Source of the DNA: Symbiodinium natans
Taxonomy: Eukaryota; Sar; Dinophyceae; Suessiales; Symbiodiniaceae
Direction of reading: 5' to 3'
DNA length: 64,000 nt
Assembly (NCBI GenBank): GCA_905221605.1
Contig: CAJNDS010002106.1
Coordinates: 479,501-543,500, forward strand
This document shows, piece by piece, positions 4,434-62,836 of this stretch; within the stretch, counting starts at the first letter, position 1, and every line of letters begins with the position of its first letter. A program made the position numbers and the translations under genes. Under the pieces are notes generated by a model. The model saw nothing but the letters and a program-made list of their open reading frames with translations. It did no database searches and had not been told where the DNA came from.

Positions 4434-7400
4434 CTAAACCCGATGTCGTGCCTCGTGCTCTGGTCGCCTGAAGACCAGCAGCGGTCGCTGGAAGTTCTTC
4501 GGAAGGTCCCCTGATCAACTGGCTGCTGTTTGGGGCTGTTTGTCCTCAAAAGGGTTACCTAACCTTGACAGTTTGAGGGATTCTTGTTTAAACGTGCTGA
4601 GCCTTAGTAAACCTCCTGCAGCAGGCTTGGCACACCACCCGCCGTTAACGCATGCCCTTAGCTTTCATAAAGCCCTAAACCCTCAACCCTGAGCCTTATG
4701 CCCAAAACTCTAAACCCTAAACCCTAATCCTAAACCCCAAACTCTCAACCCTAAACCCAAAACCCCAAACCCTGAATCCAGGCACACGTCCTGCCATCAG
4801 GCCTGGTGCTTCGATGGCCTCGACCTTTTCAAAGCCCAGGCCCACGAGATAGTCGGCAAAGTCCTCGTTTTACAAGGTTTAGGGGTTTAGGGATTAGGAG
4901 GTTCCCTACTACTAAAATACCCCGTACACCCCGCAAATTCAGGAATGTAACCCTGACTTTCCCAAAAACAAGGGAGTCCTTCGGATTTAAGACCTATATA
5001 TATATATATCTTGATTAAGGGGTATGGGGCTTTGTGGGGTAGGGTTTAGGCTTCCCGAAAATTTTCGGCTCTGCATTTTTTTAGGGTTTAGGGTTTATGT
5101 TCCTTTGCCACCCTGCCTGGCTGCACCTGTCGGGCGAAATGCAGGGCACGGGCACTCTTAAACCATCAGGGTTTAGGGATGTCATTGACAGTTCAGCGGA
5201 AACATGTGCCCATCCTCTCACGACAGCCGACTGCATCCCGTCAACTTAAATTACACAAACAAGCCGCCTTAACTCAGTAGCCCAGTAACCATATTCTAAC
5301 AAGGGAACCCTGAACCAAAAAAAGGGGCAAAAGGGTACCACTGGGCTACCAAGATAGCTAGGGTTGTTGGCGCCCGTGAGCACTGCTTCTGAGAGCCCAA
5401 ACACCAAGTTCTGATATTGGCACCCTCCTTGGGGTTGGTTACTTTAATTCTAACTAAGGCAACCTTGAACCCAAAAAGGGAAAAGGGCAAGTCCCAAACC
5501 CGAATTGAGCCCTGAACCCGAAACCTTTTTGTCCCTAACCCTAAACCCTAAACCCTAAACCCTGAACCCTAAACCTTAAACCCTAAACCCTAAACCCTTT
5601 TCAAACCCACGCCTCTGGGCGGATGTTGATGGACGCCACCGTGTCGCGGATGGCTCGCGTGATGTGGCGCTTCCTCGCTTGGCAAAGGGGCTTCCAGGGT
5701 GGGGGGGCCGTGTAAGAGCGTTTCATCCCGAGACCTTTAGGGGTTTAGGGGCTTAGGGATGTTTAGGGTTTAGGATTTAGAGTTTAGGGGTTAGGGTGTT
5801 TAGGGTTTACGGTTAGGGTTGCTCCCTGGCCTGCCGCCTAAACCCTGAGCACTGTGTCCCGGCCTCGTAGGGGGACTGCAGCCCTCTGAGAAGCCAGTGA
5901 AAACTCACACCCTACACCCTAAACCCTAAACCCAGAAGCCTCAACATCAGGCAAGGCTCTTCTTATAGCTGCTCCACCCCTGAGGCTCCAGGACGAAGAA
6001 GCCACCCGGTCTGATGGCAGAGGACTTAAGGCTTCACTGTCGGGCTTTCGCAGACGAACAACTTGGGCTAGGGGGTTGGGGTTTAGGGTTTGGGGTTTGG
6101 GGGTTTTGGGGTTTGGGGTTTGGGGTTTAGGGTTTAGGGTTTAGGGTTTAGGCTTAGCATCTGCCCGCAGGCCTGCAAGTGAAAGCAAAGAGCCCTTGCG
6201 GTGCATCAATTGTGGTGCATCAATTGTGGTGCATCAATGGCCTGCTTTGGGTAGCTGTGCATAGCCTGATCCCGATACAAGTTCATCTCGAGCCATGTGC
6301 ACACAAATACGGATGTACGCATGCACACATATAAACTCAAACATATGTGCATGCATGCAGAATGCATATACACATCTTCCGAAAAGCTATGGACATATGC
6401 ACCATAGAAAGTGCACATGTCTGTACATGTGTGCATGTCATGTGCTGGTGTATGTGCCTTATAACCATAAACACTCACCCGAAGGGTCCATGTACCTCAT
6501 TAATATTTGCTTGGGCCCTAAAGTCACTGAATAGGAGGTACTTTAAGGACCAAGTATAAAATAATTAGGTGCATGGACCCTTGAGTCATACACAACTTCA
6601 CGAACAAGGTCCCCGAGCCCCAGACGAAAGATCCTGGACTGCAACTCTAGGCAAAACGAAACTGTCCAGTAAGAATAGGGAAGGAACAAGAACAGGGGCA
6701 CACGTAATCATAAGGAAAAGAACAAGAACAAACCCTTCCTGTTCTCAGGCTCATTCTTCAGGCCACCTAAACTCTAAAACCTAAACCCCTAAACCCCAAG
6801 CCCTAAGCCCTAAGCCCTAAGCCCTAACCCTACCAACCTTGTCCTCTTGAAGCATCGCTTGAAGAGGTTGTGGATCCTGGGTTGCATATGGTCAGATCTG
6901 GGTGCCCCAACTAACATTGGCCGCCTTAGAATAAGGACCCCAAAAGGGACCATATTTTGGAGCAGTAACCATATGGTTCGGAGATTGCAGTAAGGTGTTG
7001 GCGGTAAGGTGATAGGGATTGTCAGCTTCAGATAGTTGCAAGGAAACCGAGCAACAGCATCACAATCTGAGGAGTGCCCGAGGATCCCTGTGTCTCCATG
7101 CGCAAAGTGAACCCACTTCGTCACAGACAGGCAGAGCACGACCTCAGCAATCGTCTCCATGAATTTATATACGGATAAAGCCGGCCGTCTACGCTTGAAT
7201 TGGGGTTGGTCGAGTCCATACAGGCGGCAGTGCTTGAAATGCATACATCGACACACACGCATCACCAAATTGCGAACAAGCGTACCTACATGAATGCAAG
7301 CATCAGTCCAAATAAACAACTGCACCTACATAAACATGCAATAAATGAGCATAGAATACATACATATATATATATATATAGTTATGCAATTAGTTTATAA

Positions 7401-61200: not shown

Positions 61201-62836
61201 AATCTGAAAGTTGAGAACGTGTCCGAAGCGTAGACTCCCAACACAATGCCTGCAATATACTTTCGAGCAATCTGGTGAACATCCATTCCCCTCCCCCTAA
61301 ACCCTAAACCCCGAACCCGAAACCCTAAACTCTAAACCCTGAACCCTAAGCCCTAAACCCTAAACCCCAAACCCTAGCTGCAACCTACGAACCTCCCAAC
61401 TCCCCAGCCCGAAAAGACCCGCGAAGCCCCCCCAAGGCACAGGGTGGCGAACGTCAGCAGGGCTGGGTGGACCATCCTTTTCAAGGGTCGGGGCTTCCGG
61501 TGGGGAGGGTTTAGGGTTTATAAGGTTTATGGGGTTTATAGGGTTTTTTGGGTTTATAGGGTTTATAGGGTTCATAGGGTTTAGGGTTTGGAGTTTACGA
61601 AGGTGGTTGCGAGGGGTGCTCATCAATTTTTTGGGCTGCTTTAGAGGGCACCCGACAATTCGAAGACAACGCAGAGTGGACAAAAAGGTATAGATTCCCT
61701 TTCTGTAAGGATTCCGCTGTTAAGTCACTCGTTTCCCAATGGCCTAGGCCTAAACCCTAAATGCGAAAACCCGAAATCCTCCTGCGGGTCAAAGGAGCAT
61801 CTCATGGTAGACGTGCTCATCCACGCTGTGGCCTGAACTTGCGAGTTCTTGAAGGGAATGAGGGGATTGGGTACCTTACATCCCCTATATGACTCTATGA
61901 GATCTTGTAGGGTTCGTTATACTCGAAACACCCGAAACCCTAAACCCTAAAAGGGAACTACAACGAAGGCAACCCTGCATCCTCCCAAACTGAGGGCTTC
62001 CAAGCCCCAAACCCTACACTCCGCAACTATACAACCTAAGCCCTAAACCCTATCCCTATATGTATTAAAAAATGAAGTCTGTACACACCCTAAGCCCTAA
62101 GCCCTAAACCCTAAGCGTGCCCCCTCTATCTATAAAAGAGCGCTAAACTCTATACTACAACCTAAGCCCTTAAGCCTAAGCCTCAGCCCCTCAATACACA
62201 AAAAACTCCACTGCCCTGAAGCCTTAAAAACCTCAAAGCCAAGCCTCAACCTTAGAGCTCTATGCCAAGGCGGGGGGGTGGGTCTAACATCATCTTACTT
62301 CTTCAATAACCAAGGGGGAAAAAGGTTAAACCTTTCTATTGCTACTAGATAAGGAAACCCAAAAAGTTTAAAGTTGAACTATTGGCCAGGTAAGTCATTC
62401 TTGAGCTTCAAATTGGGATTCTGAAGACAGCAGCTTTGTGGAAGAGGAGGTGTCCAACTTCTGGGGGGGGACCACTTGAATACCGTCTGAGCAATGCTTC
62501 AAAGGACTACTAATCGTTTCAAAAAAATCTTTCTTATACCGGTAATAGGGATATGTTTTTTTCTTGTTTTTTTGTTGGGAGGGGGGGGGGTCTTAAGAAG
62601 AATGAGTTAGGATGTTCCCCCTTATACTAGCAGTCCGTAACAGGAACTAGAATAGGGGGTACTTCAGTCCCTACTAAGGACTGTTAGTATAAGGGGGAAC
62701 ATCCCCTAAACCGTAAGCCCTAAACCCTAAACCCTAAACCCTAAATGGCTCTAAGGGTTTAGGTCTGCAATAGGGAACATCCCAAAGGACGAGGCACACT
62801 GCAGGAAGCCGCCCATCATCAAGAGGCGGTTGCCAC
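58245..62836 (-). CDS. Spermidine/thermospermine synthase-type aminopropyltransferase, multi-exon, partial
   Basis: Transfers an aminopropyl group from decarboxylated SAM to a polyamine (family knowledge). Exons on the minus strand: 62798-62836, 61802-61832, 61441-61476, 60525-60599, 59625-59667, 59416-59494, 59011-59045, 58555-58627, 58245-58316; every phase agrees. Motifs in order: NRLLMMGGFLQ, HSVDEHVYHEMVHPALL (DE..YHE..HP block), PHSVFLGGSGDGAGPREL (GGG.DG..RE loop), NVTMVDIDYE (acidic ligand of the methionine-derived moiety), FEDPRLRLITGDAWIHL (DA motif), TFDILILDFPDAFDSKEL (catalytic D..PD), EKLYSKEFYKL, VLVTQSGP. The FPDAFD and TQSGP forms fit either the thermospermine (ACL5) or the spermidine branch, so I give no symbol. 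The N-terminal beta domain and the C-terminus were not found; 62990-63410 and 57960-58112 hold candidate continuations. Donors are GT, GA, GT, GT, GC, GC, GA, GC, GT. Confidence 0.88.
59892..59970. repeat. (TTTAGGG)n array, about 10 units
   Basis: Inside an intron of the aminopropyltransferase gene. Confidence 0.95.
60339..60432 (+). mobile_element. MITE family C, shortened
   Basis: CTAGACCCAGGAGTAACCTA ... GGGCCTACTCTGGGTCCTT, inside an intron of the aminopropyltransferase gene. Confidence 0.7.
60602..60738 (+). mobile_element. MITE family E at an intron 3' end
   Basis: TACTTGAAGGTTCAGGGGTA ... TAGCATGAACCTGCAAGTA. In minus sense it ends CAAGTAAG exactly where exon 60525-60599 begins, so it supplies the acceptor. 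Confidence 0.75.
62607..62708 (+). mobile_element. MITE family A, nearly intact
   Basis: Ends TTAGGATGTTCCCCCTTATA and TATAAGGGGGAACATCCCCT; interior AGTCC...GGACT pairing. Lies in an intron of the aminopropyltransferase gene. A lone end (TAGGGAACATCCCAA) follows at 62771-62785. Confidence 0.75.

Follow-up and report, generated by a model that had tools for sequence, protein, structure and literature searches.

Introners have reportedly been described in dinoflagellates, by Roy et al. in 2023. They make introns in bulk, with the insertion and its target duplication supplying the splice sites, and they form families of similar elements that have target-site duplications (TSDs) of 3-9 bp when they are DNA-transposon-like (PMC9860276). 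In the dinoflagellate Amoebophrya, intron ends are able to pair via inverted repeats and direct repeats are found at the borders; the inverted repeats are family-specific, 8-20 nt long and non-telomeric, and three scaffolds are reported to end in the telomere motif (PMC7789003). In mammals, telomeric repeats were inserted at double-strand breaks as single internal insertions, sometimes with a target duplication (6 of 130 loci in rodents and 4 of 25 in primates; PMC2246262). Plant telo boxes also place the telomere motif within or near genes, where it is short, confined to the 5' regions and involved in the activation of expression (PMC3022908). Here we analyzed a 64,000-nt stretch of the Symbiodinium natans genome (the window; contig C1794:479501-543500 of an assembly that spans 759 Mb in 2,543 contigs), in which introns carry arrays of the heptamer TTTAGGG and its complement CCCTAAA. 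TTTAGGG is the telomere repeat of dinoflagellates (PMC11453091). Unlike the mammalian insertions, which the cited text does not connect with splicing, the S. natans arrays amount to millions of units, lie at exon edges, are oriented and in one case make up an intron. Unlike introners, the insert is telomeric and the TSDs are longer and variable. No paper tying telomere repeats to the creation of introns turned up in the literature searched, in which subscription journals are thinly covered, in agreement with an earlier sequence-only reading of the window that knew of no such intron class. In its main text, the paper on the S. natans genome uses none of the words "telomer", "TTTAGGG" and "introner".

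We propose that these are spliceosomal introns whose ends, and in one young case the whole body, derive from insertions of telomere repeats, a reading to which we assign a probability of roughly 0.55. The young case is found in KIF13B, in the S. natans locus L026. There, the coding sequence AAGTTTGCCCAGGCGACCCTGAAGAATG occurs as two exact 28-bp copies around a 60-bp TTTAGGG array (entered in the flank comparison as L026 995-1049). Splicing at AG|GC within both copies (L026 980-1067) excises 88 bp as a GC-AG intron; this length is not a multiple of three, and the unspliced frame runs into stops. The spliced product SRWKFAQATLKNEARDE matches the annotated S. natans protein P0073, which contains EKEDALQNLAVSRWKFAQATLKNEARDE, the GC-AG splice product of this locus. 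Annotation of the genome drew on RNA-seq and Iso-Seq (PMC8045281). The orthologous protein P0074 of Symbiodinium sp. CCMP2456 and P0077, which is transcript-derived, are uninterrupted at this site (WKFAKATVKNELREE); what was seen of a possible ancestral state is this uninterrupted protein. Judged from these sequences, a telomeric insertion with a target duplication that supplied the splice sites appears to have formed the KIF13B intron. In the wide sense of the term, namely an insertion whose target duplication gives the splice sites, this one intron is an introner. It is one case, and it is decisive in kind.

Duplications beside arrays were scored by local alignment of the flanks, with 60 shuffles of the flanks as the null. 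At a score of at least 12, duplicated flanks were found for 5 of the 338 arrays, above shuffled flanks (mean 0.60, maximum 4). Arrays of at least six copies behaved alike (4 of 125; shuffled mean 0.20, maximum 1), and exact direct repeats of at least 10 bp were present in the flanks of 10 of 316 arrays versus 1.9 after shuffling (maximum 7). The five target-site-like duplications span 17 to about 40 bp and surround arrays of a single orientation. In the following, T denotes TTTAGGG and C denotes CCCTAAA, both read in gene sense. Apart from KIF13B, a C array at 51952-52028 of the window (plus strand) is flanked by imperfectly matching copies of about 36-40 bp; the duplicated stretch includes ACTCAG|GTACTACA, where the C-terminal exon of speE (51857-51928, placed with protein P0008) has its acceptor. 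Upstream, the older copy is preceded by a C array in decay, which might mean that insertion took place there more than once. A second C array in the window (16302-16416, minus strand) stands beside a probable plus-strand exon, with a duplication of 24-28 bp that is imperfect around an exact core of 13 bp; an extra copy of this core sits between two arrays. At L007 7286-7383, a duplication of at least 23 bp ends at the acceptor AAGAG|GCC, and at L012 3269-3303 a 17-bp duplication follows a GTAAGT donor. Exon edges at these sites are protein-based for speE and KIF13B and read by eye for the other three. As far as the edges are readable, all five sites obey one orientation rule: C precedes the acceptor at 51952, 16302 and L007 7286, and T follows the donor at L012 3269 and in L026. 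What had escaped the sequence-only reading is that duplicated exon-edge sequence surrounds some arrays, which are insertions, and we think that this is the key to their nature. At 14080-14230 of the window, the 14-bp GTGCACATTAAGGT occurs twice beside a C array and GAGGCTGTAG flanks that array on both sides, perhaps a compound insertion.

The length of the duplications bears on whether the introns are classical introners, i.e., nonautonomous DNA transposons whose terminal inverted repeats (TIRs) resemble telomere sequence (TTTAGGG...CCCTAAA) and which, after insertion into genes, are spliced out. Convergent heptamers do resemble TIRs, introners of S. microadriaticum are reported with TIRs and 4-bp TSDs (PMC9860276), the Amoebophrya introns have their 8-20 nt inverted repeats, and a palindromic family of about 100 bp that resembles miniature inverted-repeat transposable elements (MITEs) occurs in the window. 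However, the duplications at the arrays are variable and far from 4 bp, TIRs with short TSDs of 3-9 bp were not found, and the youngest intron consists of the array alone. Furthermore, when telomeric units were masked, 3,451 of the 64,000 window bases matched elsewhere in the window and the sampled loci. In this sample, which is small against a 759-Mb genome, the interiors therefore have no element body in common. We regard a transposon origin of this kind as quite improbable.

Twenty introns were placed in three genes: 12 in speE and four in a Bin3/MePCE-type methyltransferase gene of the window, and four in KIF13B. Heptamers are present in 18 of them, the two others being Bin3 6877-7086 and a 169-nt KIF13B intron. 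T precedes C in nine of the 18, five hold T only, two hold C only, and two speE introns (59668-60524 and 57556-58242) show the contrary order. The heptamer closest to the 5' splice site is T in 15 of the 18. The proposal of the sequence-only reading that convergent telomere-type heptamers bracket introns was borne out, including the exceptions that it had named, the heptamer-free 6877-7086 and the reversed 59668-60524.

The second gene of the window, speE, was resolved with the annotated S. natans protein P0002 (310 aa), whose exons match the window one after another from residue 87 onward; residues 1-86 were left unplaced. With this match, an origin of the window from Eimeria or another apicomplexan, considered on account of AAACCCT repeats, was discarded. 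All speE introns placed lie on the minus strand. The P0002 mapping gave T-only introns at 61833-62797 and 58317-58554, a C-only intron at 59495-59624, and an intron with 12 T followed by five C at 57024-57514. It also gave the two contrary introns, 59668-60524 (eight C, four T, eleven C, two T) and 57556-58242 (T, C, then five T up to the 3' splice site). Intron 60600-61440 holds ten T and then C. With no hand work, the mapping returned 59046-59415 (five T, then two C) and 58628-59010 (GA-AG; seven T, then two C), exactly as given in the sequence-only reading. The intron that had been read there as 61477-61801 kept one border and was found to end at 61798, 3 nt off, with one short exon added by hand (T, then two C). 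Two further T-only introns, 56508-56977 and 56068-56461, rest on the C-terminus of P0002, an uncertain part of the model that is contradicted by orthologues. Here the S. microadriaticum protein P0008 places the further C-terminal exon at 51,857-51,928, and its intron was left out of the count of 20. The first gene was assigned by matches to Pfam PF06859 and to MePCE chains. Its introns, also on the minus strand, are 4864-5612 (GC-AG; six T, then five C), 5678-5957 (GC-AG; two T, then five C), 6011-6837 (GT-AG; two T, then four C) and 6877-7086 (GA-AG). All four agree with the earlier coordinates, though the junctions were read by eye with these in view; their support comes from the Pfam and MePCE matches and the frame. 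One KIF13B border pair (599 nt) joins two protein models.

Borders run from GT, GC or GA to AG in ten speE introns, and continuity to P0002 is kept. Such borders are those given for dinoflagellates in a review (PMC11453091). The junction script favors GT/GC/GA-AG, so the borders are not independent evidence, whereas continuity of the protein frame is. By borders and frame continuity, these introns qualify, on sequence, as spliceosomal introns of the dinoflagellate type. The sequence-only reading had further suggested that the two intron ends could pair. Eleven introns contain both heptamers, and in 8 of these the predicted folds of the isolated introns, for which no shuffled control was run, join T-heptamer to C-heptamer bases. 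Pairing of the ends cannot be required, because 5 of the 18 hold T only and 2 of the 18 C only; as a general rule, T-C pairing is unsupported.

If arrays bracket exons, gaps from C to T should be short and uniform. This can be seen independently of gene models. Among arrays of at least two copies in the window and five dense loci, C-to-T gaps had a median of 127 bp with 75 percent of them within 60-170 bp (n=89), in contrast to T-to-C gaps with a median of 276 bp and 26 percent in this range (n=85). Exon-size C-to-T gaps (60-180 bp) numbered 38 in the window versus 23.2 (sd 3.6) under permutation of the strands of 189 arrays (P 0.0002). In 12 other loci, which were chosen by contig number and position, blind to content (20 places drawn, 8 of them nonexistent), 29 such gaps were found versus 12.4 (sd 2.6) for 99 permuted arrays (P 0.0002). 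Gaps of 70-170 bp are richer in GC when they run from C to T (0.618, n=65) than from T to C (0.538, n=22), and more of their six frames are open (3.66 versus 2.27). Plain strand alternation is weaker, with 108 of 186 switches in the window versus 93.6 expected (P 0.02), and by locus P was 0.60 in L001, 0.02 in L006, 0.004 in L007, 0.11 in L011 and 0.006 in L012. Thus, the placement of exons where CCCTAAA gives way to TTTAGGG, as noted in the sequence-only reading, also holds when tested by strand permutation. That reading had named, as refuting its claim, an orientation in transcripts unrelated to intron edges, or arrays with random orientation that are just as common in intergenic DNA. In the part of this test run here, on genome sequence, orientation proved tied to exon-sized gaps, and the arrays were clustered and not evenly spread. 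Finally, purity is higher in arrays nearest an exon-like gap than in their inward neighbors (0.615 versus 0.465, 42 pairs, P 0.006), which is consistent with accretion of insertions at exon edges or with selection that keeps arrays pure.

Orientation and location of the arrays suit a role in splicing, and the purest arrays adjoin exon-like gaps. Both observations would also follow if the arrays had grown by slippage, without any insertion, from short G-rich and C-rich splicing signals at intron ends that happened to resemble the heptamer, while selection retained TTTAGGG on the donor side and CCCTAAA on the acceptor side. The 333 of 338 arrays that lack a flanking duplication at the threshold used speak for such an expansion as well. 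However, the exact 28-bp coding duplication around an array-only intron, together with the four further duplications, needs an insertion or duplication event. Moreover, selection for G runs alone would not give the species' own telomere heptamer: exact (TTTAGGG)3 trimers number 2.37 million in the genome (1,185,204 and 1,184,385 on the two strands), while the reversed-motif control has 74 sites (41 and 33). We therefore consider repeat expansion under splicing selection possible, but unlikely.

Trimer density averages 3.1 per kb in the genome and reaches 6.6 in the window, which holds 601 TTTAGGG and 595 CCCTAAA heptamers, and it is 2.1 in the 12 loci. Distribution is patchy: five of the 12 loci have 60-251 heptamers and seven have 0-8 (N content is 3,673 in L005 and 3,333 in L011). 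On the 3.4-Mb contig C1, the earliest listed plus-strand (TTTAGGG)3 lies at 235,651 and the motif is dense thereafter; arrays seem to be grouped there in large domains. Among genes examined in other loci, L035 contains three and L036 twelve heptamers. A number of kinesin genes match most of the domain within one open frame. Arrays are not common to all introns of the S. natans genome. Such unevenness could suggest a local or technical feature, in which the arrays are decay products of subtelomeric sequence or assembly artifacts that came to lie near genes by chance. This is contradicted by the exon-sized array spacing shared by unrelated contigs, by a genome mean that exceeds what chromosome ends explain, and by annotated S. 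natans proteins that splice across arrays. We give this explanation very little weight.

Returning to the origin by telomere-repeat insertion, the following course of events may be envisaged. A staggered break in or beside an exon would be repaired with a (TTTAGGG)n tract, probably written by telomerase on the free 3' end, and in the course of fill-in the target would be duplicated over 17 to about 40 bp. A duplicate that includes a splice site, or else a proto-splice site AG|G(C/T/A), would provide both borders, with the donor in the copy upstream and the acceptor in the one downstream; the insert would therefore be excised exactly, and a break in an exon would be tolerated. The outcome would be either a new intron or an existing intron lengthened at its end, since an insertion near an existing border would duplicate this border and put the array on the intron end. 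Splicing may then sort the orientation of arrays. CCCTAAA is free of AG, rich in pyrimidines and similar to a branch point, and would suit the acceptor side. TTTAGGG offers decoy acceptors (TTTAG|G), yet its G triplets would suit the donor side. G triplets are a known kind of splicing enhancer on the donor side. Repeated events of this type could yield the pattern of C array, exon and T array. What we infer in this scheme is that telomerase and a double-strand break are involved, that selection filters the orientation, and that the older T...C introns arose or grew in this manner. Its broadest form, a telomere-driven intron factory in which repeats written by telomerase at breaks in genes gave rise to introns and extended them across much of the genome, while splicing sorted their orientation, we hold tentatively and at somewhat less than even odds.

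Several observations weigh against an origin by insertion, beyond the large majority of arrays without duplicated flanks. L026 was noticed by eye before the scan, and without it the count of duplicated arrays falls to 4 of 338, which equals the maximum of the null (mean 0.60). The array-only introns found amount to this single one. Its protein model P0073 is truncated (405 aa), skips motor exons that are present in P0074 and P0077, and past the junction its end resembles the orthologues weakly. With KIF13B left aside, the 17 remaining introns in the comparison had surroundings of donor and acceptor that were no more similar than shuffled pairs (7.65 versus 7.03, P 0.13). The heptamer closest to the 3' splice site is C in just 11 of the 18 heptamer-bearing introns, and the order is broken in two of them. 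The kinesin genes in L034 and L037 and the CCT gene in L038 have multiple exons and zero heptamers. A single insertion does not explain the T-to-C interiors with their median of 276 bp, unless old introns gained extensions at both ends.

The window has further features. An AT-rich island (54001-56000; GC 0.372, compared with about 0.5 in the rest) holds a single heptamer and separates the speE exon at 56.0 kb from that at 51.9 kb; it may be an insert of foreign or mobile origin. The MITE-like family (TTGGGATGTTCCCCC ... GGGGGAACATCCCAA) was found at 3751-3827, 20119-20193, 27347-27439, 30082-30186, 39823-39921 and 62606-62702. A second dispersed repeat, starting with AGTAACCTAGGAAT or similar, is located at 36456-36554, 43607-43664 and 58125-58183, and its longest copy ends in TACTCTGGGTCCT. 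A Pfam scan of three frames of the minus strand of 8-38 kb gave weak DUF3915 matches only and identified no gene in the middle of the window, an Rfam scan gave no match at the gathering threshold, and one frame of 49-64 kb had no match in a PDB comparison.

In the cryptophyte Baffinella frigidus, NPKP-type repeats are present in several predicted proteins (P0152, P0157, P0199, P0204 and P0210), and those of P0152 are as expected of translated CCCTAAA/CCCCAAA tracts. Telomere-like repeats may invade genes of Baffinella frigidus too. For a query with the translated-repeat peptide, the named organisms among the 120 of 528 matches listed were Baffinella frigidus (12) and Burkholderia (1). Symbiodinium was not among these named matches, and the query is therefore uninformative on the spread in dinoflagellates. 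The Burkholderia entry P0169, an RNA-binding protein by name with 43 member sequences, has a similar repeat peptide that is probably unrelated low complexity.

The source of new introns is a long-standing question, with break repair and introner transposons among the candidates. We rate the S. natans arrays as a new form of intron gain by insertion, which would deserve a separate class if telomerase were proved and the scale holds. The introner survey filtered out low-complexity families by design, and telomeric introns would therefore probably have been discarded (PMC9860276); low-complexity filtering is thus a blind spot of that survey. Introns edged by one recognizable sequence with a likely source would allow the birth of introns, their age and the selection on their orientation to be measured directly, and they would tie the addition of telomere repeats to gene architecture. 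If breaks in genes were indeed turned into introns by telomerase over much of the genome, S. natans would hold a new class of spliceosomal introns with a known sequence source, and telomere maintenance would be linked to gene structure.

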